This document shows positions 5,521 through 30,478 of a stretch of DNA of 64,000 nt, piece after piece (position 1 is the first letter of the stretch; every line of letters starts with the position of its first letter). The DNA lies in the NCBI RefSeq assembly GCF_002224645.1, contig NZ_CP022121.1, positions 2,362,501 to 2,426,500 of the forward strand. The letters are read 5' to 3'. A program made the translations under genes and the position numbers. Source of the stretch: Dehalobacterium formicoaceticum. Its GTDB lineage: Bacteria > Bacillota > Dehalobacteriia > Dehalobacteriales > Dehalobacteriaceae. Below the pieces are notes generated by a model. The model was given only the letters and a program-made list of their open reading frames with translations. It made no database searches and was not told the origin of the DNA.

Positions 5521-5569
5521 CCTTGTCCCCTGAGTTTATTTCTGGTAGAATAACACTGGGGTGAAAAAA

Positions 5570-6328: not shown

Positions 6329-6354
6329 GGACGAGGTACCTGTCCCCTCGTCCC
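6328..6354. repeat. REP-like hairpin downstream of RAYT
   Basis: GGGACGAGG (6328-6336) pairs with CCTCGTCCC (6346-6354) around TACCTGTCC. The first base overlaps the RAYT stop codon. It mirrors the split hairpin at the other side of the gene. Confidence 0.7.
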
Positions 6355-6371
6355 CCCTTAAGGAGAAATAT

Positions 6372-8096
6372 ATGAAGCAATTATTACCATTAATAAAGAA
6401 GTATATGGTATTTGCAATATTAAGCCCATTATTTATGATTTTGGAAGTATTGGGAGATGTAATTATTCCCTATCTTATGGCCAAAATCGTTGATGTAGGT
6501 ATTGCAAATCAAGATATAGACTATATTGTAAGAATTGGCATGATGATGATCGGTGTAGCATTAATTGCTATGACCTTGGGAGTGGCCAGTTCCTTTTTCG
6601 GTTCAAGTGCAGGATATGGATTTGCAGCTGAAATAAGACAAAATGTATTTGAAAAGGTGCAGAGCTTTTCCTTTGCAAATCTGGATACATTTCAAGTATC
6701 TTCCCTGATCACAAGACTCACAAATGATTGTAATACCATCGGGCAGGTAACGATGATGAGTCTTAGAATGGCAATCAGGGCACCGTTTATGATGATTTTT
6801 GCTCTGTTTATGGCATTTAAAGTAAACTCATCCTTGGCAAGGGTGTTTTTAATTTCATTGCCGCTTTTAACGATAGCAATTACTGTTGCCTTAAGCAAAG
6901 CGCGACCGCTTTTTCTTATACTTCAAACTTACGTAGACAAGGTAAACGGGGTGATTCAGGAGAACTTGACCAACATAAGGGTTGTTAAGTCATTTAATAG
7001 ACAAAGCTTTGAAGAATCAAAGTTTAAAGTAAAAAATGATGGCCTCATGAATACGGCACTTAAAGCCATTACCTATGTAATCCTTTTAATGCCAATATTT
7101 AGTCTAATTGTTTATTCTACGATCATTGCCGTATTATGGTTCGGCGGAAAGCAAATTACATTAGGAAGTATGAGCGGCGGAGCCCTGATATCCTTTGTAA
7201 CATATATTACACAGGTTCTGATGTCATTGATGATGATATCTATGTACTTTATGAATCTTTTGCGTGGTTCAGCTTCTGTATCAAGAATTGTTGAAGTATT
7301 AAATACCGAATCAGAAATCAAGGAAATATCAAACCCTGTTAAGGAAGTGAAGGATGGTTCAATATCCTTTGAAAATGTAAGCTTTATCTACCCGGGCAGC
7401 TCCGAATTCACGCTTAAAAATATTAACTTTAGCATTAGCTCCGGAGAGACCTTGGGGATTATTGGTTCCACGGGCTCATCAAAATCTACTCTGGTTCAAT
7501 TAATCCCCAGACTTTACGATGTAACTGAAGGAAAGGTAAAGGTAGGAGGAGTAGATGTCAGGGATTATGATCTAGAGCTTTTGCGGGATAAGGTATCATT
7601 TGTATTACAAAAAAATACCTTGTTTTCAGGTACGATTAGAAGCAATATGAAGTGGGGCAACGAAAATGCCGCTGATGAAGAGATCATAGAGGCATTAAAA
7701 CATGCACAAGCCTGGGAATTCGTATCTAACTACGATGATGGTTTAGACCATATCGTAGAGCAAAATGGTGATAACTATTCAGGCGGACAAAAGCAAAGAC
7801 TGACCATTGCCCGTGCTCTGATGAAATCGCCAAAAGCCATCATACTGGATGATTCTACCAGTGCAGTGGATATGACTACTGATGCTAAGATTCAAAAGGC
7901 ATTTAAACAGGATCTGGCGGATGTGACTACTATTATCATAGCTCAGAGAATCTCATCAATCCAGCATGCAGATAGGATCATCGTCATGCATGAAGGGAAA
8001 ATAGAATCGATCGGTTCTCATGACGATTTGATACAAAAATCTCCAATCTATCAAGAAATATATGAATCACAGCAGAAAGGAGTGATTGGAGAATAA
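6372..8096 (+). CDS. ABC exporter half-transporter with degenerate ATPase site (BmrC/TM287-like)
   Basis: Six-helix transmembrane domain (about residues 15-300) followed by a nucleotide-binding domain. The Walker A reads GSTGSSKST (about 364-372), the signature is YSGGQKQRL, the Walker B is IILDDST with Asp in place of the catalytic Glu, and the switch residue is Gln in IIIAQRISS instead of His. This is the pattern of the non-catalytic subunit of heterodimeric exporters such as TM287 and BmrC. The start is ATG 6372, preceded by AAGGAG; an upstream in-frame ATG at 6315 overlaps the RAYT gene and lacks an RBS. The stop overlaps the start of the partner gene by one base, indicating translational coupling. 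Substrate is unknown; multidrug or lipid export is likely for the family. Confidence 0.9.
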   Translation: MKQLLPLIKKYMVFAILSPLFMILEVLGDVIIPYLMAKIVDVGIANQDIDYIVRIGMMMIGVALIAMTLGVASSFFGSSAGYGFAAEIRQNVFEKVQSFSFANLDTFQVSSLITRLTNDCNTIGQVTMMSLRMAIRAPFMMIFALFMAFKVNSSLARVFLISLPLLTIAITVALSKARPLFLILQTYVDKVNGVIQENLTNIRVVKSFNRQSFEESKFKVKNDGLMNTALKAITYVILLMPIFSLIVYSTIIAVLWFGGKQITLGSMSGGALISFVTYITQVLMSLMMISMYFMNLLRGSASVSRIVEVLNTESEIKEISNPVKEVKDGSISFENVSFIYPGSSEFTLKNINFSISSGETLGIIGSTGSSKSTLVQLIPRLYDVTEGKVKVGGVDVRDYDLELLRDKVSFVLQKNTLFSGTIRSNMKWGNENAADEEIIEALKHAQAWEFVSNYDDGLDHIVEQNGDNYSGGQKQRLTIARALMKSPKAIILDDSTSAVDMTTDAKIQKAFKQDLADVTTIIIAQRISSIQHADRIIVMHEGKIESIGSHDDLIQKSPIYQEIYESQQKGVIGE

Positions 8097-9925
8097 TGGA
8101 TAGAAAAAATAAAGCCACATTCAGACCAAGGGATCCAAAGAAAACATTATTAAGGTTATTTAGCTACTTTAAATTTTATAAGGCTCTATTTGTCATTGGG
8201 ATATTATCCATAATAGTTTCATCTTTGATGGAAGTATTTACAAATGGGATGTTAAGCCCTATTATCGATGTATTTGTGAGCGGCGGCTCTATCAACGATG
8301 CCATAAGATTTATCCTCATCATGATAGGTTTTGTACTGTTATCTACCCTTGGCCAGTATATTGGAAATCGAAATATGGCAAGGTTGGCGCAAAAGATTAT
8401 TCATAAAATACGTGCAGATATGTTTGAGCATATGGAAAAACTGCCTATCTCATACTTTGACACCCATTCTCATGGTGAATTAATGTCTACCTTTACAAAT
8501 GACGTGGATATGTTGAATCAATCCCTGGAGCAGGCAGTATCTCAAATCATCGTATCCATCGTAACGACAATTGGTACATTCATAATGATGTTAATTATTA
8601 GCCCTGCCCTTACCCTTGTCGTGGCCATTATGTTTATCTTGATGTTCGTCATTATTAAGATCATCGGTTCAAAATCTGCTTATTATTTTAGGGATCAACA
8701 GCTTAGACTTGCCAATATGAATGGTTATATTGAGGAGATGATGTCGGGACAAAAAGTGGTTAAGGTGTTTAATTATGAGAATCGAGCAATAGAAGATTTC
8801 AGAAATAGAAATGATCAGCTTAGAAAATCATCATCCCGGGCTGCTACATTCGGCGTGATGTTAATGCCGATAATGGGGAATCTAACATTTATGCTCTATT
8901 CCGTAGTAGCTATTCTGGGCTCCTTTATGGTGATTCAGAAAACCCTTAGTATAGGTAATATTGCTGCCTTTTTACAATTTACCAGGACAATATCAAGACC
9001 GATAACCATGGTATCTAATCAGCTTAATACATTGTTTGCAGCCCTTGCCGGAGCTGAAAGAATCTTCGCCATTCTAGATGAAAAAGTGGAAGAGGATGAA
9101 GGAGATGTGGTGCTTGAAAGGGATTGCCAGGGAAAGGGCGGCCATTGTTGGAAGGTTCCTAATGGAGCTGGCAGCTTTGATTATATACCGGTAAATGGCG
9201 ATATCGAATTTAAGGGTGTGGATTTTGGCTATGTTCCCGAAAAACAGGTCTTAAAGGATATCAATCTTTATGCAAGACCCGGACAAAAAATTGCCTTTGT
9301 TGGTTCAACAGGAGCTGGAAAGACCACCATCACAAATCTAATCAACAGATTCTATGAGATAAACGATGGGACAATTCTATATGATGGAGTGGATATCAAA
9401 AGAATAAATAAGATGGATTTAAGAAGCACGATGAGTATAGTTCTTCAGGATGTTCATCTATTCGAAGGAACTGTAGCCGATAACATCAGATACGGCAGAC
9501 TTGATGCCACCGATGGGGAAGTAACGGCGGCAGCAAAGCTGGCCAACGCCCATTATTTTATTAAGCATCTTCCTCAAGGCTATGATACGATGCTAACTGT
9601 AGATGGACTGAATCTGTCTCAAGGGGAAAGACAGCTACTATCAATAGCAAGAGCAGCTATTGCCGATCCGGAGATTTTAATCCTGGATGAAGCTACATCC
9701 TCTGTGGATACAAGAACCGAAAAGCTAATATCCGAGGGAATGGATAAGCTCATGGAAGGAAGAACAACCTTTGTCATCGCCCATAGGATGTCAACAGTTC
9801 GTGATTCCAATGCCATCATGGTTCTGGAACAAGGGGAGATCATAGAGCGCGGAAACCATGATGACTTAATGGCACAAAAAGGAAGATACTATGCACTAAA
9901 TGCAGGAACACTTGAATTAGAATAA
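8096..9925 (+). CDS. ABC exporter half-transporter, catalytic partner (BmrD/TM288-like)
   Basis: Transmembrane domain (about residues 30-330) and nucleotide-binding domain with a canonical Walker A GSTGAGKTT (near 402), Walker B LILDEATSSVD with the catalytic Glu, and His in FVIAHRMS. Its signature motif is degenerate (LSQGERQLL instead of LSGGQ), as in TM288. Together with the preceding gene one composite ATP site is consensus and the other degenerate, which defines a heterodimeric ABC exporter. About 30 residues between the two domains form a Cys- and Gly-containing insertion (DCQGKGGHCW). ATG 8096 overlaps the upstream stop. A 14-bp terminator follows. Confidence 0.9.
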   Translation: MDRKNKATFRPRDPKKTLLRLFSYFKFYKALFVIGILSIIVSSLMEVFTNGMLSPIIDVFVSGGSINDAIRFILIMIGFVLLSTLGQYIGNRNMARLAQKIIHKIRADMFEHMEKLPISYFDTHSHGELMSTFTNDVDMLNQSLEQAVSQIIVSIVTTIGTFIMMLIISPALTLVVAIMFILMFVIIKIIGSKSAYYFRDQQLRLANMNGYIEEMMSGQKVVKVFNYENRAIEDFRNRNDQLRKSSSRAATFGVMLMPIMGNLTFMLYSVVAILGSFMVIQKTLSIGNIAAFLQFTRTISRPITMVSNQLNTLFAALAGAERIFAILDEKVEEDEGDVVLERDCQGKGGHCWKVPNGAGSFDYIPVNGDIEFKGVDFGYVPEKQVLKDINLYARPGQKIAFVGSTGAGKTTITNLINRFYEINDGTILYDGVDIKRINKMDLRSTMSIVLQDVHLFEGTVADNIRYGRLDATDGEVTAAAKLANAHYFIKHLPQGYDTMLTVDGLNLSQGERQLLSIARAAIADPEILILDEATSSVDTRTEKLISEGMDKLMEGRTTFVIAHRMSTVRDSNAIMVLEQGEIIERGNHDDLMAQKGRYYALNAGTLELE

Positions 9926-9945
9926 TTAATCAAATGATAAATAAT

Positions 9946-9988
9946 AAATGATAAAAGGGAATCGACCCCTTTTATCATTTTCTATTTT
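9946..9988 (+). terminator. Terminator of the ABC exporter operon
   Basis: A perfect 14-bp stem (9946-9959 with 9967-9980), a seven-base loop, then TCTATTTT. It lies 20 bases past the stop codon. Confidence 0.85.
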
Positions 9989-10062
9989 ACTGAGTTGAGA
10001 GGCTGAATATTAATCCGTGTAAATGGTAATAATCTCCACATAAAACAAATGGAGGTTATCAT

Positions 10063-11289
10063 ATGAAAACATCTAAGAACAAACTCACGGACAAAGAAAT
10101 GGAATTGGTAAGTCTGCTGATGCAAGATTGCCAAAGCACGGGTGATATACAGTCAAAGCTAAAACGACTATTTGCTGGTTCTATTGAGCAGATGCTAGAA
10201 GCCGAGATGGATGAACATTTGGGCTATGAAAAACATTGTGTAGAGGGTAATAACAGTGGTAATTCGCGCAATGGTTACAATCGCAAGACTATTATAAGCG
10301 ATTACGGGGAAAGCGAAATAGCCATACCCCGTGACCGTAATGGTGAATTTGAACCAAGAATCCTTGGAAAGCGGCAAACTCGAACTGATGAGATTGAGCA
10401 AAAGATAATGGCTATGTACTCTAAAGGAATGTCGCAGCGAGACATTGAGGATAATCTGCGCGAGATATACGGGGCGGAAATCCCTCAAACCTTGATTTCT
10501 AAGATTACAGATAAAATTCTGCCGGAAGTGAATGAGTGGCAAAACCGCCCGTTGGAAGCGATTTATCCGATAATATATTTTGATGGCATTGTGTTCAAAA
10601 GCCGTAAAGATAGCCAAATTATAAACAAGTGCGTCTATTCAGTTTTGGGAATTGATATGAACGGCCAGAAGGATATTTTAGGGATTTGGATAAGCGAAAA
10701 CGAAGGAGCTTCATTTTACGCAAGCATTTGCTCCGACCTTAAAAACCGCGGTGTTACGGACATTTTTATTGCTTGCCACGATAACCTAAAAGGGCTTGGA
10801 GAAGCCATAAACGCGGTATTCCCAGAGACCAAGCAGCAGTTATGCATAGTGCACCAAGTACGCAATTCTACTAAGTTTGTGCAATACAAGGATAGAAAGC
10901 AAGTCTGTGCCGATCTAAAGAAAATTTACGGCGCGGTAAATCTTGACGATGCGGAGTATGCAAAAGAGGAATTTCGGGAAAAATGGGATAAGAAGTATCC
11001 ATCTATTATGCGTTCCTGGGACGCAAATTGGGCTGAACTTACAACGTTTTTCAACTATCCTGAGCAAATCCGGCATTTGGTTTATACAACGAATGCGGTG
11101 GAAGCATACCACAGAATGGTGCGAAAATTCACGAAAGCAAAGGCGATTTTCCCCACTGACGACTCGATAAGAAAGGTTGTTTTCCTATCGGTCAAAGAAA
11201 TCGCTAAAAAATGGACGCTGCCAGCTCGTAATTGGGCGATGGCATACAGCCAGATTATGATTTACTTCGCAGATAGATTTACGGCTTAA
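10063..11289 (+). CDS. IS256-family transposase
   Basis: 408 residues, the normal family length. The DDE catalytic residues sit in the family contexts YFDGIVFKSRKD (first Asp), ACHDNLKGL (second Asp) and TNAVEAYHRMVRKFTK (Glu). The N-terminal half has MLEAEMDEHLGYEK and SGNSRNGYNRKT, typical of this family. RBS TGGAGG precedes ATG 10063. It is intact and probably active. It is clearly related to the transposase at 29204 but differs throughout, so the two are separate arrivals rather than copies. Confidence 0.95.
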   Translation: MKTSKNKLTDKEMELVSLLMQDCQSTGDIQSKLKRLFAGSIEQMLEAEMDEHLGYEKHCVEGNNSGNSRNGYNRKTIISDYGESEIAIPRDRNGEFEPRILGKRQTRTDEIEQKIMAMYSKGMSQRDIEDNLREIYGAEIPQTLISKITDKILPEVNEWQNRPLEAIYPIIYFDGIVFKSRKDSQIINKCVYSVLGIDMNGQKDILGIWISENEGASFYASICSDLKNRGVTDIFIACHDNLKGLGEAINAVFPETKQQLCIVHQVRNSTKFVQYKDRKQVCADLKKIYGAVNLDDAEYAKEEFREKWDKKYPSIMRSWDANWAELTTFFNYPEQIRHLVYTTNAVEAYHRMVRKFTKAKAIFPTDDSIRKVVFLSVKEIAKKWTLPARNWAMAYSQIMIYFADRFTA

Positions 11290-11298
11290 AAGCTGCAT

Positions 11299-11313
11299 GG
11301 GGGCTCTGCCCCC
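11299..11313 (+). terminator. GC-rich hairpin after the IS256 transposase
   Basis: GGGGGC-TCT-GCCCCC, ten bases after the transposase stop. The second IS256 element carries the same hairpin in its own orientation at 29183-29197, so it is a conserved part of this IS type, possibly limiting read-through. Confidence 0.5.
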
Positions 11314-11513
11314 AAACCCCCGAGGTTTATACGCATTGGACTTACCGGTAAAATGTAAAACAGCGAACATAAGCCCGCCGTTTTACCGTATAAGTCCGTA
11401 GCAAGCGTGGGGTCGCTCCTCAGCGTTGCCCTGATTATGCTACAATAAAAGTATTAACAAATTTTTGGATGATTATTCCGTTTACACTAAAGGATGTTCA
11501 GAACCTGAGTTGA

Positions 11514-12482
11514 TTAACGATTCTTTTTAAAGTCTAATTTTTTGGGCATACCAGCAATAATAGTAAAAGCCCCAGTCACCCTGTTAATACCTATTTCAGA
11601 TACCTCCTGCATCTTTTCCTCTGAGACACCCCAGGACAAAGGGGTCATTTTTATTAAATGGTGCAGCTCTTCACTGTTTAACTTAAACTCATAATTAACC
11701 TTTTGGGTGTCAATGATATGGAAATTTTTGCTGAAAAGATCAAGCACCATTTTATTCGAATATAATTCTTTGTCGGTTTCCTGATAAAAGGCCGTTCTTA
11801 ATTCTTTCAGATAATCACTGTCCGGGACAACCTTAATCAAGATCCCTTCATCACCAATAATCCTCTTAAATTCCCCATAATTTGCCGGAGAAAGAATGTT
11901 TAAGATGACATCAAACTGCTGATCCATAAAGGGAGTCTTAGCCAGGTCTGCGACAAGCCAGAAGATATCCTGATAATTTTTGGCGGCAATTTGGATGCCT
12001 CCTTTGGAGATGTCGATGCCCACGCCCAAAAGATGAGCTGTTTCTAAATATTCCTGGTATTCCTGATGTTCCTGATCATTTAAACCGTTGATAATCCGAG
12101 CTAAATGAAAACCTTCACCGCATCCCGCATCCAAAATCTTGATCGATTTAGTTTTGAGATCGAGAGCAGAAATACTCCTGTTATCAGAAATGCTCCCGTT
12201 ATCAGATATAATCTTTCCCATCATCTGCACCACAGCCTCGATTAATGGATCGAAGAAGCCGGTTTGGGATATGATATTTCTGGATTGAAACAGTTTTTTA
12301 TCATATTTTGAATTACCATGATTTTGCAGGAGATTGACATACCCTTTTTTGGCAATGTCAAAGCAATGGTTATTCAAACAAACAATGCTTTTGTTACCTT
12401 GAACAGACATCCTGTCTCCGCAGACAGGACATTTGAGCATGGCGATGTTTTCGCTGATGATAAGTTTATCTTTCTCGGTCAT
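11514..12482 (-). CDS. 23S rRNA (guanine-N1) methyltransferase, RlmA family
   Basis: 322 residues. The N-terminus has a zinc-finger-like cluster (LKCPVCGDRM ... IVCLNNHCFD) followed by AKKGYVNLL and YDKKLFQSRN, all hallmarks of RlmA/TlrB proteins. The SAM-binding motif ILDAGCGEGFHL follows, and the fold ends with a Rossmann-like domain containing ILNILSPANYGEFKRII. The family methylates G745 or G748 in domain II of 23S rRNA; which position cannot be told, and TlrB-type members give macrolide resistance. The start ATG 12482 has AGGAG a few bases upstream. Between residues about 95 and 145 there is a Ser/Asn/Gln-rich stretch (SDNGSISDNRSIS, QEHQEYQEYLE) that looks like a local insertion. Only the stop-codon side is close to the IS256 element. 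Confidence 0.85.
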   Translation of the reverse strand: MTEKDKLIISENIAMLKCPVCGDRMSVQGNKSIVCLNNHCFDIAKKGYVNLLQNHGNSKYDKKLFQSRNIISQTGFFDPLIEAVVQMMGKIISDNGSISDNRSISALDLKTKSIKILDAGCGEGFHLARIINGLNDQEHQEYQEYLETAHLLGVGIDISKGGIQIAAKNYQDIFWLVADLAKTPFMDQQFDVILNILSPANYGEFKRIIGDEGILIKVVPDSDYLKELRTAFYQETDKELYSNKMVLDLFSKNFHIIDTQKVNYEFKLNSEELHHLIKMTPLSWGVSEEKMQEVSEIGINRVTGAFTIIAGMPKKLDFKKNR

Positions 12483-12690
12483 AGAATCTACTCCTCATAT
12501 TTCCCTTTATCTGAAACAGTTTTCGCTTAATCAGAAATTATTTCAGCCTACCCGTCATTTCGTATCTCATGCAGGATCTTAATGATTGCTGCCTGATGGT
12601 TTATTGATCGGTCATCAATGGCTATCAATGGTTATTCTATCCTTTAACGATCTAAAGAGCAAGATAAAAGGATGCCAGCGGGACGGGGGC

Positions 12691-12750
12691 GGGACGGGGG
12701 GACAGGTCCCTTGTCCCTGGCGGGACGGGGGGACAGGTCCCTTGTCCCTT
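12691..12750. repeat. Tandem REP-like units, family 1
   Basis: Two near-identical ~30-base units contain GGACAGGTCCCTTGTCCC (12691-12718 and 12722-12750). The sequence after the second unit (GAATTTATTTTTGATAGCATAACACT) parallels the sequence between REP and RAYT start at 5530-5560, so this was once the upstream end of a RAYT locus. Confidence 0.7.
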
Positions 12751-12786
12751 GAATTTATTTTTGATAGCATAACACTAAGGTAAAAG

Positions 12787-12840
12787 ATGCCAAGATGTGC
12801 CGGAACGCCAAGTGAAAGAGGAGTCCCATGTTCAATAAAG
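12787..12840 (+). pseudogene. RAYT gene remnant (first ~12 codons)
   Basis: ATG 12787 begins MPRCAGTPSERGV, matching the start of the intact RAYT at 5570 (MPRCARKPSESGI), then diverges and stops. The upstream leader and REPs are also conserved. It is the scar of a second, deleted RAYT copy. Confidence 0.75.
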
Positions 12841-13314
12841 TGACGAGTGAATTAGCCAAGGCAAGCCCTTTATGTTGCTTGTATCCTATCAGCAGTAAAC
12901 TTATGTCGTAAGAAGAACAAGCACCTTTTGCATCAATTCTCTGTTATTTATTTAACCAAAATACGGATTGTTAAGGGCGAGCCAATTTTTCCAAATAAAT
13001 TATATTAAGAAGGGAAAACGGTCTTTCCCACGCAACGATGAGCTTGCTCGTAAAAAAGAGCGTGTTGGTGCGTGTTGACCATGGGCAAAGAGATTGCTTA
13101 CCCGACACCTTCTGTTTCTTTGAACCTCAGGGAAAATTGCCATGTGCGGGTTATCATTATATAATAAGGAATGGGGAAATTATTATAGAAGATATATTAA
13201 CGTCATAATCAACGCCATAATCATGACCATAATCAAAACCAAGACCATACCAAGAGTAAAAAACCTGCTAATTGTTTCAGCCTATAATCAGCCGATAATA
13301 AGAGGTGAAATCAC

Positions 13315-14709
13315 TTGTTTAATAATTTATGGATCAATTCCTATCTGGGCAGGCTTCATCAGGAAGTATTGGAGTTATTCTCGGAAGGAATATATGTAAC
13401 AAATGCTGATGGGAAAACACTGGCTGTCAATAGTATGTATGAAAAGCTAACCGGTTTAAATCGGGAGGATCTGGTGGGCAGATTAGTATTTGAACTGCAA
13501 GAAGAAGGGAATTTTGATGTTCTTACCTATCCGGAAGTAATTGCGACCGGAAAGAAAGTAACGACCATGCAAACTACGAAGGCGAACAAAAATGTTTTGT
13601 GTAACGGTTACCCCATCTTCAATGAGGAAGGCAAAATTTCCCTGGTGATCACCTTTGTCAGGGATTTAACCTTAGTTAACCAACTCAAGGAACAGATCAT
13701 GGATCAGCAATTTATGATTGAAAAATATCGGGAGGTCAATAACCAGCGCAAAAAAGAGTTTGATCAAGGGACGACAATTATTAAAAGCGCCCCTATGGTT
13801 CAACTAATGGAAAAATTAACATTGATTGCCAATACTGATGCGACGGTCTTGATTTTAGGTGAAACAGGGGTAGGCAAGGGAGTGCTGGCTCAAAAAATTC
13901 ATGAAAAAAGCATGCGCTCTAAAGAACCCTTTTTAAAAATTGATTGCTCGGCGATCCCTGAAAATCTGATCGAATCAGAATTGTTTGGCTACGATTCCGG
14001 GGCATTTTCCGGTGCCAATAAAAAAGGTAAAGCCGGTTTATTGGAGATGGCCGACAAAGGAACCATATTATTGGACGAAATTGGCGATATGCCTTTACAG
14101 ATGCAGGTTAAATTATTACGAGCAATCCAAGACCAGGAATTTATGCGTGTCGGCTCCACCAAGATCAGAAAAGTAGATGTCAGGTTTATTGCCGCGACAA
14201 ATAGTGATTTAGCGGAAGAAGTTAAAAAAGGTAAGTTTCGCAGCGACTTATTTTACCGCTTATGTGTTGCTGTGCTTAATATCCCCTCCTTAAGGGAAAG
14301 AAAAGATGATATTTTGGAGCTGGTAAATTTCTTTTTAGACAAATACAATCACAAATATCATAAGAATGTATCTTTTACAGAGCAATTCGAAAAAGCTTTG
14401 CTTTCTTATAAATGGCCGGGTAATGTACGGGAGCTGGAAAATTTCATTCAGGGATTTGTTGTTTCTCATGAAAATGATATCTTCGATATCGGTGACCTGC
14501 CCCAGCATATGCTTACGGACACTGCCGAATTATACAATATTGATTTTCAGGATGCTGATAAATCATTAAATGAAATGGTGGGAGATTATGAAAAAAATTT
14601 ACTTAAAAAGGCTATAGAAACCTATGGTTCGGCAGATAAAGCGGCCGAAGCATTAAAGATTGACCGTTCGACAATCTTTAGGAAGATTAAAAAATATGAT
14701 TTAGCGTAA
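13315..14709 (+). CDS. Sigma-54-dependent activator (PAS - AAA+ - Fis-type HTH)
   Basis: A PAS sensor domain (about residues 15-115: LFSEGIYVTNADGKTLAVNSMYEKLTGLNREDLVG) is followed by a coiled linker and the AAA+ domain with Walker A GETGVGKG (near 182), the sigma-54 contact loop GAFSGA (near 229; consensus GAFTGA, Thr to Ser), Walker B TILLDEIGDMP and the R-finger region. The C-terminus is a Fis-like HTH (GSADKAAEALKIDRSTIFRKIKKYDL). There is no receiver domain, so the PAS domain probably senses the signal. The start is TTG 13315 with AGAGGTGA seven bases upstream; no ATG exists before the PAS core. A -24/-12 promoter and paired palindromes lie directly downstream, so it most likely activates the methyltransferase operon that follows. 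Confidence 0.92.
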   Translation: MFNNLWINSYLGRLHQEVLELFSEGIYVTNADGKTLAVNSMYEKLTGLNREDLVGRLVFELQEEGNFDVLTYPEVIATGKKVTTMQTTKANKNVLCNGYPIFNEEGKISLVITFVRDLTLVNQLKEQIMDQQFMIEKYREVNNQRKKEFDQGTTIIKSAPMVQLMEKLTLIANTDATVLILGETGVGKGVLAQKIHEKSMRSKEPFLKIDCSAIPENLIESELFGYDSGAFSGANKKGKAGLLEMADKGTILLDEIGDMPLQMQVKLLRAIQDQEFMRVGSTKIRKVDVRFIAATNSDLAEEVKKGKFRSDLFYRLCVAVLNIPSLRERKDDILELVNFFLDKYNHKYHKNVSFTEQFEKALLSYKWPGNVRELENFIQGFVVSHENDIFDIGDLPQHMLTDTAELYNIDFQDADKSLNEMVGDYEKNLLKKAIETYGSADKAAEALKIDRSTIFRKIKKYDLA

Positions 14710-14730
14710 TAATTGTCGCAGTTTTAAAAT

Positions 14731-14816
14731 TATGTCGCAATGATGCGACATAAGATTTTTCTTTATATACCTATATCGAAATGATTTATCTGTTTTAAGG
14801 TCGCAATGATGCGACT
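14731..14816. promoter_or_regulatory. Paired palindromic enhancer sites for the sigma-54 activator
   Basis: TATGTCGCA-ATGA-TGCGACATA (14731-14752) is a perfect 9-bp-arm palindrome. Its core GTCGCA-ATGA-TGCGAC recurs at 14800-14815. A half site TGTCGCA lies at 14714-14720 and a degenerate copy around 14776-14790. They lie 180-260 bases upstream of the -24 element, the usual distance for bEBP enhancer sites. The second copy is followed by a T-run and could also end the activator transcript. Confidence 0.75.
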
Positions 14817-14989
14817 TTTTTTATTTCTTAAATTATTACAGGCAAATTCAGGTCTGTTTCTATCAGGATAACTCCACTAAATGGCATAGAACCGAAATAT
14901 CCAGCAATACCAATGAATATTCAGCAATAGACCAGGGTATATAATCCACGGATCCTGCATTTTTCGACAAATAATTTGAATTTCTGAGA

Positions 14990-15007
14990 TTGGCATGATA
15001 ATTGCTT
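14990..15007 (+). promoter_or_regulatory. Sigma-54 (-24/-12) promoter of the methyltransferase operon
   Basis: TTGGCATGATAATTGCTT matches the consensus TGGCAC-N5-TTGCA, with GG (14992-14993) and GC (15004-15005) separated by exactly ten bases. Transcription would start near 15017, leaving a leader of about 150 bases. The leader holds a hairpin with TTGGGG/CCCCAA arms but no recognised riboswitch. Confidence 0.88.
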
Positions 15008-15168
15008 TTAATTAATCATGTAAGTTGAGATTAAACATAATACCTTTTGGGGCAGCAACGAATTTACTTTTCACCCCAACAAAAAACCCTCATCATTAAG
15101 TTTTTAATTAGTTAATCCTTCGTGAATTTTTATTAATTATGAAAGGAGAAACCTAGAAAGGAGAATAG

Positions 15169-16848
15169 ATGAAATTGGATACGATAAATGAGAAAGAATC
15201 GAAAGAATCGAAAGAATCACTTTTAGATCATTACTGCACTCCTGCTGAAGCGATGGAGTTGTTCAAAAAGGGCGGCCTATTCGCAGTTCTTGATGTGCGG
15301 GAGCAGGAGGAATTTTCCAGAGGCCATCTGCTTCTGTCCAGCTCCGCACCGTACAGCCGTCTTGAATTCATTGTTCCTGTGCTGGTTCCAAGTAAGACAG
15401 TTCCCATGGTCATTTTTGACAGCGGGGAAAAAGATGACCCCCGGGCCGAGAAGGCCATCCGGCTTTTAGGAAAGATGGGCTATACCCAGGTAAAAATTCT
15501 TAAGGGCGGCTTGGCCGCATGGCAAAATGCCGGTTATGTGGTGGTAGAAGGGTCAAGTTGTATGGCCAAAGGCTATGCCGAGATTTTGGAACAGGAAAAA
15601 GATGTGCCCGGTTACACTCCTGCAGAAATCGACGAGCAGGTGGCTCAGGGAAGAGATGTGGCATTTGTAGATATCCGTGTACCGGAAGAGTTTACCAGCA
15701 TGTCTTTGCCTGAAGGCATTAACGCCCCTGGCTGCGAATCTGCCTATCGTTTGCATGATATCGCGCCTAACCCGGACACCTTGGTGGTATTGAATTGTGC
15801 GGCCAGGACCCGTAGTATTCTTTTTACCCAAATGCTGATTGATTTCGGCGCACCAAACCCAATCGCCTCTTTGAAAGGCGGCACGATGAACTGGAGAAAG
15901 AGCGGCTTTGAATTAGAACATGGCATCAGGAAAAGAATCGCTCCACCTTCTGCTGAGGCACACTGTCTGGCCAAAGAACGAGCCGGTAAAATGGCGGACG
16001 CCTTCGGTATTGAATTTATCGATGCGGATACTTTTCGCAAGTGGCAGGAGGAAGCAGAGGACAATCCCCTCTATATTTTTGATGTGCGCCAACCCGAGGA
16101 ATACGAAGCAGGGCATTTGGAAGGTTCCCGCTCTGCTCCCGGCGGACAACTGACACAGCGTTCCGACGAATATGCCTCTGTGCGTAAGGCTCGGTTCGTA
16201 CTTATTGACGACACAGAGGTTCGAGCCATCATCACTGCTTACTGGCTCAAACAAATTGATATACCAAACGTATACGTGCTTAAAGGCGGTCTGGGGGGCT
16301 CAGGACTTGGCAGGGAAGGCCTCGTCTCCGGTCCCGAACCAAAGCCTATCCCTACCCCCGCTTTTATAAATAGCATCACCCCGGAAAATCTCTCGGAAAT
16401 GCTCTCAGGCATGACCCCCCCGTTGGTGATGAACGTGGGATACAGCGATAAACATCGTCAGGGGCATATTCCGGGATCTGCCTGGGTACCTCGCGGCTGG
16501 CTGGAACTGGCTTATAAAGCAAATCCTGATGCAGGAGTCGTCGTGCTTACCTCGGATTGCGAAGCACATGCCAAACTTGCAGCTGCCGATGCCCAAGAGA
16601 TATGGAATAAGGCCGAAGTTTTCTTCCTTGAAGGCGGCACAAATGCCTGGAAGAACGCCCATTTGCCTATGGAAAAGGACATGCCTGTTTCATTTACTGC
16701 AGAAGATGATATCTGGTACCTGATCTACATGGAACCGGATGCCCCACTAAGTGCCATGGAAGGATTTTTTGATTGGAAACATGAGCTGGGGGACCAAATC
16801 ATTAGTGATGGAACTTTTAACTTCCGCCTTCCGAAGGCAAAGAAATAG
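15169..16848 (+). CDS. Protein of four tandem rhodanese domains
   Basis: 559 residues made of four rhodanese-homology domains at roughly 20-125, 145-255, 280-378 and 402-500. Each has the FD/DVR-x-x-x-E-(F/Y)-x-x-GH or related motif and the LKGG-x-x-x-W motif. Only domain 2 keeps a catalytic cysteine in a proper loop (NCAARTRS, Cys210). Domains 1, 3 and 4 have Ser or Asp at that place (FDSGEKDD, IDDTEVRA, TSDCEAHA, the last with Cys464 two residues later). The final 55 residues are unique. No signal peptide, so cytoplasmic. RBS GAAAGGAG precedes ATG 15169. It is the first gene after the sigma-54 promoter, suggesting a sulfur-linked step in use of the operon's substrate. That role is inference; rhodaneses transfer sulfane sulfur. 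Confidence 0.85.
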   Translation: MKLDTINEKESKESKESLLDHYCTPAEAMELFKKGGLFAVLDVREQEEFSRGHLLLSSSAPYSRLEFIVPVLVPSKTVPMVIFDSGEKDDPRAEKAIRLLGKMGYTQVKILKGGLAAWQNAGYVVVEGSSCMAKGYAEILEQEKDVPGYTPAEIDEQVAQGRDVAFVDIRVPEEFTSMSLPEGINAPGCESAYRLHDIAPNPDTLVVLNCAARTRSILFTQMLIDFGAPNPIASLKGGTMNWRKSGFELEHGIRKRIAPPSAEAHCLAKERAGKMADAFGIEFIDADTFRKWQEEAEDNPLYIFDVRQPEEYEAGHLEGSRSAPGGQLTQRSDEYASVRKARFVLIDDTEVRAIITAYWLKQIDIPNVYVLKGGLGGSGLGREGLVSGPEPKPIPTPAFINSITPENLSEMLSGMTPPLVMNVGYSDKHRQGHIPGSAWVPRGWLELAYKANPDAGVVVLTSDCEAHAKLAAADAQEIWNKAEVFFLEGGTNAWKNAHLPMEKDMPVSFTAEDDIWYLIYMEPDAPLSAMEGFFDWKHELGDQIISDGTFNFRLPKAKK

Positions 16849-16979
16849 CAAAAACTGAGAAAACTGAGAATCGAAATTTTAACTGATCGGCTTGCACGGG
16901 GACTACTCTGTTGCTGCTTTAAGTAACAGTCCTGTGAATTTATAAAAAGAAATCAAGCAAAAATAAGGAGGATTTAAAA

Positions 16980-17627
16980 ATGGCAAATCAAGAAGTTATT
17001 CAGAAAATGAAAGATGCTCTCTTAGCTTTTGATGAAGATATGGCACAAGCTGCTGCCGAGGAAGTGGTCAGTACAGGAGCTGATATTGTAGAAACCATGA
17101 AGGTTATGGGTGATACCATGGGCGAAATCGGCGAACAGTTCCAAGTTATGGAAATATTTTTGCCGGAAGTACTGCTGGCATCAAAGGCTTTTAAAGTAGC
17201 GATGAAAATATTTGAACCGGAACTGCTCAAATCAGGGACAACACAAGGTGAGCGTCCGAGAGCTGTAATTGGCTCCGTCAAAGGCGACCTGCACACGGTA
17301 GGAAAAGATATGGTAACCACCATGTTGACCGTGGGCGGTTTCGAGGTCAAAGACCTGGGGATTGATTTGGATGCTTCTACCTTTATTACCGAAGCCGATG
17401 CTTTTGGGGCAAAAATTATTTGCGTGTCTGCTTTAATGTCCTCGACCATCGCACAGCAAAAAACAGTTATTGAGTTTCTTAAAGCTAAAGGATTACGTGA
17501 TAAATTTAAGGTCATGGTTGGCGGCGGCCCTTGCACTCAAAGCTGGGCAGATTCTATCGGAGCCGATGGATTTGCCAAGGATGCCGTTGGTGCCGTTGAA
17601 GTTGCCAAGAAATTAATCGCCAATTAA
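16980..17627 (+). CDS. Corrinoid (cobalamin-binding) methyltransferase protein, MtmC/MtbC/MttC family
   Basis: 215 residues, the normal length. An N-terminal helical cap (B12-binding-2, about 1-85) is followed by a Rossmann-type B12 domain with the His-on motif VKGDLHTVGKDMV (D-x-H-x-x-G, lower axial His) and the GGGPCTQSWADSIGADGFAKDA segment that contacts the nucleotide tail. It would carry the methyl group between the MtmB-like protein (next gene) and the methyl-THF methyltransferase at 20532. A strong RBS (AAGGAGG) precedes ATG 16980. The 130 bases upstream hold a possible small hairpin but no gene. Confidence 0.95.
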   Translation: MANQEVIQKMKDALLAFDEDMAQAAAEEVVSTGADIVETMKVMGDTMGEIGEQFQVMEIFLPEVLLASKAFKVAMKIFEPELLKSGTTQGERPRAVIGSVKGDLHTVGKDMVTTMLTVGGFEVKDLGIDLDASTFITEADAFGAKIICVSALMSSTIAQQKTVIEFLKAKGLRDKFKVMVGGGPCTQSWADSIGADGFAKDAVGAVEVAKKLIAN

Positions 17628-17666
17628 GTATAATTATGATTTAATAAAAAAGGGGGTTGCACAGAT

Positions 17667-19079
17667 ATGTTGATTAGCAGCAGAGGCAGATTCTTAGATT
17701 TCTGGAAAAGAGCTGAAACAGGTCCGATTTGCTTTCGGGATGATTTTGATACCAAGGTTTATTGGCCCAAGGTAAAGGAAATTACCAAAAAATATGGGAT
17801 TGTATACGATCCCAGTCATATGATTCCTTGTGATGATGATATGCTTGATCGTTTGTGGAAGGCGGCAATTGAGCTGGTTGTTGAAGTGGGCGTATTATGT
17901 GTTGATACGGAAAGAATCATTGAGTTCACGGAAAAAGAAATTCTTGATGTGATTGAAAATATCCCTGATCATTTTGTCATGGGCCGGGGCAATGATGCCA
18001 TTGTGTGCAAGCATCGTGGCATAGAAAATTACGATGACTTAAAACAGCCCGCATTTTTGCATGGCCGCATCTTGGGACCGATTTCTGAAGATATTTATGA
18101 AAAGGTTTGTTGGAGTTATATTCGAGAACCATTAGCAGATCATATTGCCTTCCAGGGTAATTTGACCTCCATCTTTGGTATGCCGGTAACACCGAATTCC
18201 CCTTGGGAAATAATGGCTGAGATGAAATGCACCTCCATCGTTAAGGATGTATGCCGTCGTGCCAGCCGCCCGGGCATGGCAGACGGAGGGATCAGATCCA
18301 TTTCCATACCGGCTCTGCTTTCCGTTAATAATCCTGGCTGGGGCATGCAGCCGGGGGATAACAGATCTGCCTTGCTCACACCTCAGCATAAGGTGGAGTA
18401 CGCTCATTTAAACAGAGCATTAATATGGCATGCGAATGGTAACATCATCCAGGGTGGTATGTGCTGCTATCCGGGCGGTTTATCCGGATCTCCTGCTCAC
18501 TCGGCAGTGACCGGTACCGCGGAGTTCATTTTAAATAAATTGCTCTTTGATCTTACCCTTGATGGTTCTTGGGCAGTTGATGCCATGTATTTCAGTAATA
18601 CCAGTAAATATTCCTTGTGGTGCAGCAATTACCAAAATGCTGCTGTTATGAGGAACACCCATAGTGCTCCATTGATCGGGGGCGGTTGGCAGATGACAGC
18701 GGGAATTGGCAGCGAAGAGTTCTTCTGGGAATCTGCCGCCTCGGCGATCAGCGCAATTGTTCTGGGTTGCGGAGTTTCCGGCGGATCAGGTTGTCAAAGC
18801 GGCGGCTTGGATCATGCCAGTGGATTAGGTTTGAGATTTTCCGGTGAGGTAGCTAAAGCAGTTGCCAAAACAAAACTTACCAGAGAACAGGCCAATGGAC
18901 TTGTCCTTGATATTATGAAAAAATATCAACCATATATTGATGACCACACCGCACACACCTTAGGCGGCGATTTTAGAGAGTGCTATGATTTAGAAACAGT
19001 TGAGCCCAAAAAAGAATATCTTGCTATTTATGAAAAGGTAAAGGCGGAGCTTCGAGAAATGGGCCTCCCCATGAATTAA
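17667..19079 (+). CDS. MtmB-family methyltransferase without pyrrolysine
   Basis: 470 residues. The protein aligns by eye with archaeal monomethylamine:corrinoid methyltransferase MtmB over its first ~210 residues and again at the C-terminus: DFWKRAETG, KKYGI, IPCDDDMLDRLWKA, CVDTERIIEFTEKEI, GPISEDIY, TPNSPWEIMA, RRASRPGM, and FRECYDLETVEPKKEY near the end. In MtmB the pyrrolysine codon (UAG, residue 202) lies three residues after RPGM; here that place is Gly207 (RPGMADGG) and the frame has no amber codon. This parallels MtgB, a pyrrolysine-less member of the TMA methyltransferase family that demethylates glycine betaine. It should methylate the corrinoid protein encoded just upstream, from a substrate other than, or handled differently from, methylamine. 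RBS AAGGGGG precedes ATG 17667. Confidence 0.85.
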   Translation: MLISSRGRFLDFWKRAETGPICFRDDFDTKVYWPKVKEITKKYGIVYDPSHMIPCDDDMLDRLWKAAIELVVEVGVLCVDTERIIEFTEKEILDVIENIPDHFVMGRGNDAIVCKHRGIENYDDLKQPAFLHGRILGPISEDIYEKVCWSYIREPLADHIAFQGNLTSIFGMPVTPNSPWEIMAEMKCTSIVKDVCRRASRPGMADGGIRSISIPALLSVNNPGWGMQPGDNRSALLTPQHKVEYAHLNRALIWHANGNIIQGGMCCYPGGLSGSPAHSAVTGTAEFILNKLLFDLTLDGSWAVDAMYFSNTSKYSLWCSNYQNAAVMRNTHSAPLIGGGWQMTAGIGSEEFFWESAASAISAIVLGCGVSGGSGCQSGGLDHASGLGLRFSGEVAKAVAKTKLTREQANGLVLDIMKKYQPYIDDHTAHTLGGDFRECYDLETVEPKKEYLAIYEKVKAELREMGLPMN

Positions 19080-19130
19080 GATATTAAAGAAGACCGCTAA
19101 TACCTGTAATACCGGTAAGAAAGTGTGACG

Positions 19131-19201
19131 ATCAAGGGCAGCAGAGAAAAAGATTATCAATGCTGCCCTTGATTACACCTTGATTACACCTTGATTACAC
19201 C
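19131..19201 (+). promoter_or_regulatory. Intercistronic hairpin plus three 11-bp repeats
   Basis: ATCAAGGGCAGCA (19131-19143) pairs perfectly with TGCTGCCCTTGAT (19161-19173). TTGATTACACC is then repeated three times without gap (19169-19201). There is no T-run, so this may be a processing or mRNA-stability element separating the MtmB-like gene from the membrane-protein gene rather than a terminator. Confidence 0.5.
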
Positions 19202-19312
19202 TTGATCAATGCAAATTCATTTTGCTCAACTTAATTTAAATGTAAAAATCCCTTCTCTTTGAGATGTCTCGGTTAGTTACATGCTATTTTTCTAGCTGGA
19301 AGGAGGATTTAT

Positions 19313-20368
19313 ATGTCAGATACCACAAATAGTATTCAAGTGCCGAATGTTCAATCATTTCTAAGGGGTTTTCCCTGGGTCGTCATGATTTTGGTGTTTG
19401 CTTTCTTATCTTGGTTGTTTTGGGAACCATTTCTCAGCATGTTTATGGATGGGGAATCCGCCCAATATGCTTCCATTGGGATCTCAACAATCGGAGCATA
19501 TTTAGTCAGTATCTTTGCCATCGCCGGACAATGGCCCTTTCAAAAAGTTGAAAACAAATGGGTTAGGGGAATTCTGCTGATTTTGCTGGCCAAGGTTATT
19601 GCCGCTGCATTTTGGATCATGCTGGTGCGTGTTTTTCATGTCAATATTGTCATGTGGGCCTTTCCGATTATATCTAATGCCTGGTTGATTCTGGCCGCAA
19701 CCAGCTTTGTGGGTGGAGATGCGCATCTGCCCAATGTTCCTCCTGTCAGAAAAATGTTTCTTAATTTAATTATTGCCGTGGGTGGTACCCTCGTTCTGTT
19801 GCGTACCATTGTCATCTTTCCCTCTACCTGGTTTGCCATGCTGCAGCCCATTATCGTGACCGGGGGATTAGCATATCTGTTTCGGCGTGTTAAGCAACCC
19901 ACCTTTAGCATCCTTTCCTGGTCATTACTGTTAGGATTAATGTGGATCTTTGTTTCCGTGGCCTCATGGCTTGGTCATTTTACGATTGATCATAATGCGC
20001 CCCAGTTTTGGACATGGAATTTAGGTGCCGGTTCTGCCGAATTTAATTTATTTTTTGCCTTTGCCTGTGGTCTGAATTTTGCTGTTTTTGCTTGCACCCA
20101 ATGCTGGCCCTTTAGCCGTATCAGACAACCATGGGGTACAACGATCGCACTTTTCTCAGTTTTAACCTGGTGTTTTCTAATCACCCGTGCCATCATACCA
20201 TTATTTAATACGATCGTTCCCGGGGATGCTTCCTTATGGCAAGCACAAATAATGGCGTGGCACACCGTATTTTGGGGCTTTTCCTGGGTCTATTGTTTTG
20301 GTGTCGGTCAAAAACCATATCTTTGGGCAGGACAGAAGACTCCTGGAACCTGGGATGATGTAGATTAA
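19313..20368 (+). CDS. Multi-pass membrane protein in the methyltransferase operon
   Basis: 351 residues with about eight or nine hydrophobic helices, many Trp and Phe, and conserved-looking polar points inside them (for example HFTIDHNAPQFWTWNLG and ACTQCWPFSR). I do not recognise the family. Its place between the MtmB-like gene and the methyl-THF methyltransferase suggests a role in substrate uptake, comparable in position to the MttP permeases of methylamine operons, but no sequence similarity to these is claimed. RBS GGAAGGAGG precedes ATG 19313. The C-terminal tail is short and hydrophilic. Confidence 0.7.
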   Translation: MSDTTNSIQVPNVQSFLRGFPWVVMILVFAFLSWLFWEPFLSMFMDGESAQYASIGISTIGAYLVSIFAIAGQWPFQKVENKWVRGILLILLAKVIAAAFWIMLVRVFHVNIVMWAFPIISNAWLILAATSFVGGDAHLPNVPPVRKMFLNLIIAVGGTLVLLRTIVIFPSTWFAMLQPIIVTGGLAYLFRRVKQPTFSILSWSLLLGLMWIFVSVASWLGHFTIDHNAPQFWTWNLGAGSAEFNLFFAFACGLNFAVFACTQCWPFSRIRQPWGTTIALFSVLTWCFLITRAIIPLFNTIVPGDASLWQAQIMAWHTVFWGFSWVYCFGVGQKPYLWAGQKTPGTWDDVD

Positions 20369-20531
20369 GAGATAATATAATAAAATAAAATATATGGGCA
20401 TCTGGAAAGATATAAGATAGTGTGTAGTGCATAGCATAAGAAAACATGGAATAGCGTAAAATAGCGTAAAAAAACAGAAAATTTATAAAAAATTATGAAA
20501 TGATGAAAAAAGTAAAAAGGAGATTAATTTC

Positions 20532-21392
20532 ATGGAAACCATTTTAAAAAGCAAGACAAAAACTGTCACGATCAGCCCGGATCATCCCTTTGTGATAATT
20601 GGGGAAAAAATTAATCCTACGGGGAGAAAAAAGCTTACTACAGAATTAGAAAATAATGATTTGAGCGGTGTAGCCAGAGAAGCGGAACTGCAAGTGCAGG
20701 CAGGGGCCCATGTGCTGGATGTTAATGTGGGCGCTTCAGGTATTGATGAAGCAAAAACGATGGTTGAAGCGATTAAAATCATCACTGATATCACTAATTT
20801 GCCTTTATGTTTTGATTCGGCCGGCAGTCATGTATTGGAAGCTGCACTTAAAGCATATGAAGGAAGAGCTTTGGTCAACTCGGTTTCCGGGGAAAAGGAA
20901 AAACTAGATAAGGTCCTTCCCTTAATTAAAGAGTATGATGCCGCAGTGATTGCCCTGCCCATGGATGATAAGGGGATTCCCCATGAACCGGAAGAACGCT
21001 TTGCCATAACGGCAAGAATTGTGGAAGCAGCAGAAAAAATAGGGATCGACCGCAAGGACATCATCGTTGATTGCTTGGCCATGACATTAAGCGCCGACGA
21101 TCAATCGGCAAAACTAACCTTGGATACCATGAAGAAAGTGCAAAAAGAATTGGGCTGCAATATGAGTTTAGGGGTCAGTAATATCTCCTATGGTTTACCG
21201 GATCGGGATATTATTAACTCATTTTTCCTGATTGCCGCCATCGATAGCGGACTGACTTGCGCTATTATTGATCCCACCAAAGAGGAAATGAAAAGCGCGA
21301 TTGTTGTAGCTGAACTCATAAGCGGAAGAGATAAGGATTGCTTAGGTTTTCTTAAGGCATATAGGGCGAAGATGAAGAAAGCGAAACAATAA
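20532..21392 (+). CDS. Methylcobalamin:tetrahydrofolate methyltransferase (MtgA/MtrH-like, pterin-binding domain)
   Basis: 286 residues forming a single dihydropteroate-synthase-like TIM barrel. The pterin-binding motifs are visible: IIGEKINPTGRKK at the start, AGAHVLDVNVGASGID, PLCFDSAG, LVNSVSGEKEK, and SLGVSNISYGLPDRDIINSFFL. The size and motifs fit the MtgA type that moves the methyl group from a corrinoid protein to THF, rather than DHPS itself or full-length MetH. It completes a three-component chain with the MtmB-like and corrinoid proteins; methyl-THF would enter the Wood-Ljungdahl or one-carbon pathway. RBS AAAAGGAG precedes ATG 20532. REP elements begin 30 bases after the stop. Confidence 0.92.
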   Translation: METILKSKTKTVTISPDHPFVIIGEKINPTGRKKLTTELENNDLSGVAREAELQVQAGAHVLDVNVGASGIDEAKTMVEAIKIITDITNLPLCFDSAGSHVLEAALKAYEGRALVNSVSGEKEKLDKVLPLIKEYDAAVIALPMDDKGIPHEPEERFAITARIVEAAEKIGIDRKDIIVDCLAMTLSADDQSAKLTLDTMKKVQKELGCNMSLGVSNISYGLPDRDIINSFFLIAAIDSGLTCAIIDPTKEEMKSAIVVAELISGRDKDCLGFLKAYRAKMKKAKQ

Positions 21393-28962: not shown

Positions 28963-30478
28963 GGCAGTGTTTCATATTTCGTGTAATTGGCTATTCCCAA
29001 CAAGGTTTAATACCTTGCAATAATGGGTAAAATTTTAGTACAGTCAGAAAGACAGGGCTCTGCCGGAGGGCAACCTGAGGGTCTGACTGGGGAACTCAAG
29101 CAATTGAAAAGGCGGTCTCAAATGGGGCTGCTTTTTCATTTTCTATTGCTTAGATTCCCAACCCGGAAAACTCCGGGGGTTCGGGGGCAGAGCCCCCGAG
29201 AAGTTATACACCTTTGCTGTCCGTCAGACGTTCCTCAAAGAAGATAGACATCTGCCCCATTATTATTCCCCAATCGCGAATTGGTAAACTCCATTTTCTC
29301 TCAATTTCCATAATGGACAAGTAGATTGATTTTTTTAGTGATTCATCGCCGGGAAAGGTGGTTTTGGTTTTTGTAAATTTCCGTAACATCCGATGAAATC
29401 CTTCTACTGAATTTGTCGTGTAAATTAGCCTTCTAACATTCTCTGGATACTTGAAATATACCGAAAGCTCGCTCCAGTTATCTCGCCATGACTTTGCTAT
29501 CTGTGGGTATTTTTTACTCCATTTCTCCCCAAATTCTTCAAGATGATAAAGTGCGTCATCCTCACATGGAGCCTGATAGATCATTTTTAAATCCGCCATA
29601 ATAGTTTTTAAATCTTTGTATGAAACATATTTTGTTGAGTTTCTGATTTGGTGGATGATGCAAAGCTGCTGCTCTGTTTTCGGGAAAACGCTGTTTATCG
29701 CTGTCGATAATCCGCTTAAATTGTCGTGGCATGCAATTAAAATGTCGTTTATGCCCCGATTTTTCATCTCATTGACTACAGTTGCCCAAAAGCTTGCACT
29801 TTCATTTTCGCTGATCCAAATACCTAATATCTCTTTTCTGCCTTCCATATTAATCCCTAATACTGTATAGGCACATTTGTTGATGATCTTGGCATCCTTT
29901 CTCACTTTGAAGACTATTCCGTCAAAGAAGACTACAGGATATATGCTCTCCAATGGTCTTGATTGCCACTCCATTAGCTGCGGCATGATTTTGTCTGTAA
30001 TTCGACTGATCAGAGCCGGTGATGCATCTACTCCATAGATATCACGCAGGTGGTCTTCTATATCACGGGTAGACATTCCTTTTTGATACATGGCTATCAC
30101 TTGGTGCTCTAAATTATTTGATTTTGTTTGATATTTCTCAATCAATTGCGGTTCAAATTCACCATTTCGATCTCGTGGAACTTTTATTTCCGTCTTTCCC
30201 ATTTGCGTTTGTAACGTTTTTTTGTTGTAGCCATTCCGGCTATTTCCGCTCAGATCTCCTGCCGGGCTATGCTTATCATATCCCAAATGCTCATCCATTT
30301 CTGCTTCCAGCATCTCTTCAATTGTTCCGCTGAACAGGTTTTTCAGCATGGAATGGATGTCCTCCATGCTACTGCATTCCTGTGCCAATAGTTTTACTAA
30401 TTCATTTGCTCTTTCGTTCATTGATAACATCTCCTTTATAGTTATTGTTACCAATTACACGAAATTTTAAGCGTTCTC
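28963..30478 (-). mobile_element. Complete IS256-family insertion sequence with 8-bp target duplication
   Basis: The ends share ATTTCGTGTAATTGG exactly (28976-28990, and as its complement at 30451-30465), with weaker matches out to the tips. CAATTTAT flanks both sides (28955-28962 and 30479-30486). The 240 bases between left end and the transposase stop hold only a GC-rich hairpin (29183-29197) and no gene. It lies between the small gene at 28720 and the serine recombinase. Confidence 0.9.
29204..30421 (-). CDS. IS256-family transposase
   Basis: About 405 residues from ATG 30421, which has AAAGGAGATG upstream. Catalytic contexts are FFDGIVFKVRKD, ACHDNLSGL and TNSVEGFHRMLRKFTK. It is closely related in pattern to the transposase at 10063 but with differences along the whole length (for example LQTQMGKTEIKV in place of IISDYGESEIAI). 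The frame is complete, so it may be active. Confidence 0.95.
   Translation of the reverse strand: MNERANELVKLLAQECSSMEDIHSMLKNLFSGTIEEMLEAEMDEHLGYDKHSPAGDLSGNSRNGYNKKTLQTQMGKTEIKVPRDRNGEFEPQLIEKYQTKSNNLEHQVIAMYQKGMSTRDIEDHLRDIYGVDASPALISRITDKIMPQLMEWQSRPLESIYPVVFFDGIVFKVRKDAKIINKCAYTVLGINMEGRKEILGIWISENESASFWATVVNEMKNRGINDILIACHDNLSGLSTAINSVFPKTEQQLCIIHQIRNSTKYVSYKDLKTIMADLKMIYQAPCEDDALYHLEEFGEKWSKKYPQIAKSWRDNWSELSVYFKYPENVRRLIYTTNSVEGFHRMLRKFTKTKTTFPGDESLKKSIYLSIMEIERKWSLPIRDWGIIMGQMSIFFEERLTDSKGV

Follow-up and report, generated by a model that had tools for sequence, protein, structure and literature searches.

Homologues of MtmB that lack pyrrolysine (Pyl) were already recognised in 2022 and noted in Ca. 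Formimonas warabiya DCMF (PMC9768040), and many of them have no known function. The first to be given one, in 2026, is MtqB of Methanococcoides methylutens Q3c, which demethylates choline and tetramethylammonium and methylates free cob(I)alamin from both, while being slightly active on methylamine and inactive towards TMA and glycine betaine; the other non-Pyl branches of the 1,061-sequence tree are unassigned (PMC13044021). By analogy, choline-like amines would be the default donor expectation for a Pyl-less MtmB. A further point of comparison is provided by type I mlp clusters, which have been proposed for S/Se-methyl metabolism; one version of the text of that paper makes no mention of MtmB (PMC10418091).

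Dehalobacterium formicoaceticum is an anaerobic dichloromethane (DCM) fermenter with pyrrolysine biosynthesis genes (PMC6778437). The window analysed here, a stretch of 64,000 nucleotides of its genome, encodes at 17667-19079 (+ strand) a non-pyrrolysine methyltransferase of the MtmB family, as judged from Pfam, phmmer, alignment, tree and structural model; this protein of 470 aa is referred to as MT1. The open reading frame comprises 470 codons, starts with ATG and contains zero in-frame stops. In the Pfam scan, PF05369 (MtmB) is the sole match (6e-79, 266 bits, profile positions 4-450 of 450; curated cut-off 25 bits), and PF06253 (MTTB) gave nothing at E<=1. In a phmmer search of the PDB, only MtmB of M. 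barkeri was found (best 1l2q/1tv2, E 2e-57). An AlphaFold model (30 aligned sequences; mean pLDDT 89) superposes in VIA-align on 1nth with a Z of 52.1 over 454 residues (rmsd 2.2), i.e. the MtmB TIM-barrel fold, at 28-29% identity to M. barkeri MtmB1 (1nth, 1l2q, 1tv2), and the RPGM and C-terminal ECYD motifs are shared; Foldseek agrees with this result. The glycine betaine methyltransferase MtgB (9yce, 2qne) is likewise Pyl-free and works with a corrinoid protein, but it belongs to the MttB superfamily (PF06253), and the MT1 model matches MttB/MtgB structures with a Z of 23 at about 12% identity. The original prediction had called this protein a pyrrolysine-free MtmB homologue on the basis of five ordered motifs, and both the profile comparison (no better-matching family) and the structural comparison bear it out; all five motifs were located in MT1, with RPGM at R201-M204 and Gly207 three residues on. 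MT1 is a full-length, Pyl-free member of the MtmB family that has lost the Pyl-associated residues.

Gly207 (codon 18285-18287, + strand) sits, by translation and a 46-protein alignment, in the column of Pyl202 of M. barkeri MtmB1. Throughout the window clade (the tree clade of MT1, see below), the loop following RPGM lacks one residue relative to the Pyl enzymes, so the pairing depends on the alignment; of the two phmmer alignments, one sets Gly207 against Pyl and the other against a gap. The earlier assignment of Gly207 to the Pyl site thus stands in the 46-protein alignment and in one of the two phmmer alignments, and MT1 is without pyrrolysine whichever alignment is taken. The M. barkeri residues E229, E259, Q333 and Y335, which lie around Pyl, are kept in 10/10 Pyl proteins of the alignment; MT1 has none of them and carries S234, G264, G340 and Q342 at these columns. 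Other non-Pyl proteins have W, C, V, I, A, M, T, K, Y or G in the Pyl column. An MtmB homologue of DCMF (L021, C1:1721234-1722586), the long-branched sister of the window clade, carries a lysine there (RPGMPIKG), lysine being the backbone of pyrrolysine.

The genome of D. formicoaceticum contains four MtmB-family genes, of which two (710 and 707 bits) are interrupted by a single in-frame TAG and the others have none, and 17 MttB-family genes, eight of them with an in-frame TAG. The loss of Pyl is therefore specific to the gene and not forced by the organism, since the same genome has TAG-bearing mtmB and mttB genes.

The missing Pyl-associated residues, as aligned, argue against monomethylamine as the main donor of MT1; the lack of Pyl does not strictly exclude this amine, since MtqB, without Pyl, is slightly active on it. 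A site that cannot form the amine-activating Pyl adduct most likely takes a preactivated donor, i.e. a quaternary ammonium or a sulfonium/S-methyl compound. F162, Y268, W302, Y308, F309 and W354 are invariant in the window clade, where the Pyl enzymes have V, I, G, W, G and L, respectively, and the same holds for D206, which adjoins G207 and is L in the Pyl enzymes; small or aliphatic residues thus prevail in the Pyl enzymes at these positions. F162, Y268 and W302 lie at or beside predicted strand ends. These aromatic residues and D206 are compatible with a putative cation-binding box, an idea built on sequence and predicted secondary structure and not on pocket coordinates. The wealth of aromatic residues in the clade would suit a donor that is specifically a quaternary amine of the choline/tetramethylammonium type, with MT1 working like MtqB, the sole non-Pyl MtmB of known activity (PMC13044021); we give this reading somewhat less than an even chance. 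MT1 and MtqB are both Pyl-less MtmB homologues, and the corrinoid partner of MtqB is MtbC-like, but MtqB is a methanogen enzyme with known substrates and a CoM-directed MT2.

The partners of MT1 are encoded on the same strand. A corrinoid protein of the MtgC/MtbC type (16980-17627, +), with its DxHxxG motif at residue 103, precedes MT1; the MtgC model, which is that of the MtgB partner, and the MtbC model score best with it, both below their curated cut-offs. Downstream of MT1 follow a polytopic membrane protein (19313-20368, +) and a methyl-THF:corrinoid protein methyltransferase (MT2; 20532-21392, +), a pterin-binding TIM barrel that retains the methyl-THF methyltransferase motifs. The corrinoid and THF partners expected in the original prediction are thus present. 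It had further taken a Pyl-less MtmB branch with such partners to point to a new methyl donor; the partners and the loss of Pyl hold, whereas the lack of Pyl in a branch is not enough to infer a new donor, since MtqB uses choline and tetramethylammonium. No corrinoid-activating enzyme was found within the window operon, and the activase must therefore come from elsewhere in the genome. Type I mlp clusters hold MtaA-like proteins and an activase, of which the window operon has neither.

The explanation that we consider probable, with moderate confidence, is that MT1 belongs to an inducible donor:corrinoid protein:THF system which is independent of Pyl and would use a methyl-onium (N+ or S+) donor. 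The TIM barrel of MT1 would bind a small methylated donor and hand its methyl group directly to Co(I), with the adjacent corrinoid protein as acceptor and no involvement of pyrrolysine; MT2 would then move the methyl group from the corrinoid protein to THF and hence into the Wood-Ljungdahl pathway. We infer this direction of methyl flow for a set of steps that are reversible in principle, and the sequence gives no direction. A flow from methyl-THF via the corrinoid protein to an acceptor methylated by the MtmB homologue is nevertheless improbable: the sigma-54-dependent control and the presence of a dedicated membrane protein are in keeping with catabolic uptake, and to our knowledge every characterised MtmB or MttB relative demethylates, which counts against the reverse direction.

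The genes at 15169-21392, together with the regulator upstream, form a candidate sigma-54 operon, for which we infer induction; the activator and its promoter would activate these genes in response to the donor or a signal of its presence. The regulator (13315-14709, +) is a PrdR-like sigma-54-dependent activator of PAS-AAA+-HTH architecture with GAFSGA loop and Walker A motif. It is followed by two copies of the palindrome GTCGCAATGATGCGAC (14734-14749 and 14800-14815), by a sigma-54 promoter-like -24/-12 element, TGGCATGATAATTGCT (14991-15006, +), and by a four-domain rhodanese (15169-16848, +), presumably accessory, with the CAARTR loop intact in one domain; the corrinoid protein, MT1, the membrane protein and MT2 complete the order. 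TGGCATGATAATTGCT is the sole -24/-12 element with <=1 mismatch on either strand of the window, and a near-identical element, TGGCATAATAATTGCT, is found at the equivalent place in DCMF. The palindrome has two sites genome-wide at <=1 mismatch, both between the regulator gene and the rhodanese gene, and two related palindromes are present in DCMF. These could be activator sites or terminators of the regulator gene; copy 2 of DCMF has no T-run, which favours the activator site without settling the matter.

In DCMF, the regulator (71% identical), corrinoid protein, MT1 (85% identical), membrane protein and MT2 are conserved at 71-85% identity and in the same order; the rhodanese is absent and an enoyl-CoA hydratase is in its place. 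The DCMF locus (L061) also contains, at 4167-6900 downstream of the regulator, an insertion that is IS66-like in our reading of its open reading frames, and the end of the regulator and the region of the first palindrome are duplicated there. The operon is a compact testable case, with a small, well-defined clade, a cognate corrinoid protein and MT2, a candidate inducible promoter that is conserved, and two culturable hosts; the identity of its donor would reveal the role of Pyl-less MtmB in bacteria and any move of the family beyond amines.

The membrane protein, with at least eight TM segments, matches no Pfam or NCBIfam family. It probably carries the donor in or the product out. The absence of a Pfam match means that it is not a recognised BCCT or EamA transporter, which weighs against a donor of the choline/tetramethylammonium type. 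Copies of the membrane protein are found beside the paralogous mtmB of the same genome (89% identical) and in DCMF (82%); beyond these, the 398 genomes of the phylum yielded one distant homologue. The membrane proteins of the two Dehalobacterium clusters are thus 89% identical and their MT1s 38%, which suggests a related compound. A model of the membrane protein made from four sequences (pLDDT 46) is too poor for fold comparison. The distant homologue (31%), which lies in a B12 diol dehydratase cluster of another Bacillota genome, was considered as a lead to the substrate and was rejected as too remote. The intergenic stretch between mtmB and the membrane protein gene (19080-19312) contains repeats of two kinds, inverted (AAGGGCAGC...GCTGCCCTT) and tandem (short copies of TTGATTACACC), which are possibly a processing or attenuation element.

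In the maximum-likelihood tree, all ten Pyl proteins group together (100/100), and MT1 falls into a clade of its own with ten members (100/100); in other parts of the tree, some long branches meet. The window clade consists of three lineages: MT1 and its DCMF ortholog; proteins of Selenomonas, Schwartzia and an Acidaminococcaceae MAG (52-54% identity to MT1); and those of a rumen Firmicutes MAG (41%) and the Dehalobacterium paralogue (38%). In a sample of 398 genomes from across the phylum, 28 have an MtmB-family gene, and among those of the 28 that were placed in the tree the window clade is represented only in the host genome itself and in Schwartzia (G349); within the order to which Schwartzia belongs, a window-clade gene is present in 16 of 189 genomes. 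The clade is uncommon. A search of plasmid and phage collections gave no match.

In the Selenomonadales relatives, the gene often follows a corrinoid protein gene and usually lies near genes for a corrinoid activase and MtaA-like proteins, both of which the window operon lacks; some loci hold a second corrinoid protein. Several of these loci, not all, have LarE, DUF2292, MetQ and O-acetylhomoserine sulfhydrylase nearby, as well as Cys/Met PLP enzymes and sulfonate-type ABC genes. In rumen-type Selenomonadales (L082-L087, L114-L122), the clade gene is found inside or beside type I mlp-like clusters with sulfur/methionine genes, and in one genome (G547, L115) degenerate MtmB fragments lie downstream of the gene, as if a second copy had decayed. 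The sulfur/methionine contexts of these 52-54% relatives, which are not amine contexts, speak against a choline/tetramethylammonium-type donor. The type I mlp make-up, tied to S/Se-methyl metabolism (PMC10418091), and the neighbouring LarE, DUF2292, MetQ, O-acetylhomoserine sulfhydrylase or sulfonate-type ABC genes point instead to an S-methyl donor (thioether or sulfonium), with THF as the putative methyl acceptor in Dehalobacterium and a thiol in Selenomonadales, and the first gene of the window operon, a rhodanese, is in line with this. We regard this S-methyl assignment as rather unlikely all the same: the operon of DCMF has no rhodanese, and the sulfur neighbours vary among the Selenomonadales genomes and may be regional. 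Nor would these clusters replace methionine synthase, a role that was considered and rejected, in that MetH-type genes (PF02574) are present in 174 of the 189 genomes, including 13 of the 16 clade carriers, the other three carriers being draft genomes; a search for MetE (PF01717) gave mostly weak matches, some of which are the adjacent MtaA-like gene. A broader proposal, that the clade is a separate Pyl-free MtmB branch with a donor new to the family (e.g. S-methyl/sulfonium), for whose methyl group the acceptor would be THF in acetogen-like bacteria and a thiol in the rumen Selenomonadales, is put forward tentatively. In the rumen, such enzymes could, as a speculation, compete with methylotrophic methanogens for methyl groups.

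Both D. formicoaceticum and DCMF ferment DCM, and a non-Pyl MtmB-family protein showed the top log2 fold change (+11.87) in DCM-grown DCMF (PMC9768040), so that the operon might serve the metabolism of DCM or another halomethane. The induced protein, Ga0180325_111810, resembles MT1 in being an MtmB-family protein without Pyl and in coming from a bacterium of the same family of DCM fermenters, but it is 30% identical to MT1, falls on another branch of the tree and increased on DCM (PMC9768040). Its reported identity to WP_089610783.1 is 30.32% (PMC9768040), which equals the BLASTP identity of 30.32% found here between a DCMF homologue (L026, C1:1874254-1875603) and MT1; MT1 is thus very probably WP_089610783.1, and L026, as judged from these identities, very probably Ga0180325_111810. 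For WP_089610108.1 the published identity is 28.26%, and the paralogue gave 27.35% in this analysis, a near but imperfect agreement. L026 has Ile at the Pyl column. The argument for a DCM role from the induced DCMF protein was therefore rejected, since the identities assign that protein to another paralogue (30.3% identical) and the true ortholog of MT1 is a different gene (85%). Members of the window clade are also present in rumen bacteria that are not known to use DCM, and we consider a halomethane function highly improbable; the preferred reading remains a methyl-onium donor whose methyl group would be delivered to THF.

The second non-Pyl MtmB gene of D. formicoaceticum (L063, C1:1922500-1942499; cluster at 2592-17367) encodes a protein with Cys at the Pyl column. 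Its cluster comprises a sigma-54 regulator, a CobW GTPase, an MtaA-like protein, a corrinoid activase, a URO-D protein with a thioredoxin-like C-terminus, the rare membrane protein in its 89% identical copy, and a glycyl radical enzyme carrying a GCVEH motif together with the cognate radical SAM activase; an MtmB homologue adjoining a glycyl radical enzyme looks unusual. This enzyme reached no equivalog cut-off and matches choline lyase and diol dehydratases about equally, the former match being a further point for a choline-type donor. The region of the window operon is flanked by two related open reading frames that resemble mutator-type transposases (10063-11289 and 29204-30454), on opposite strands and 18 kb apart.
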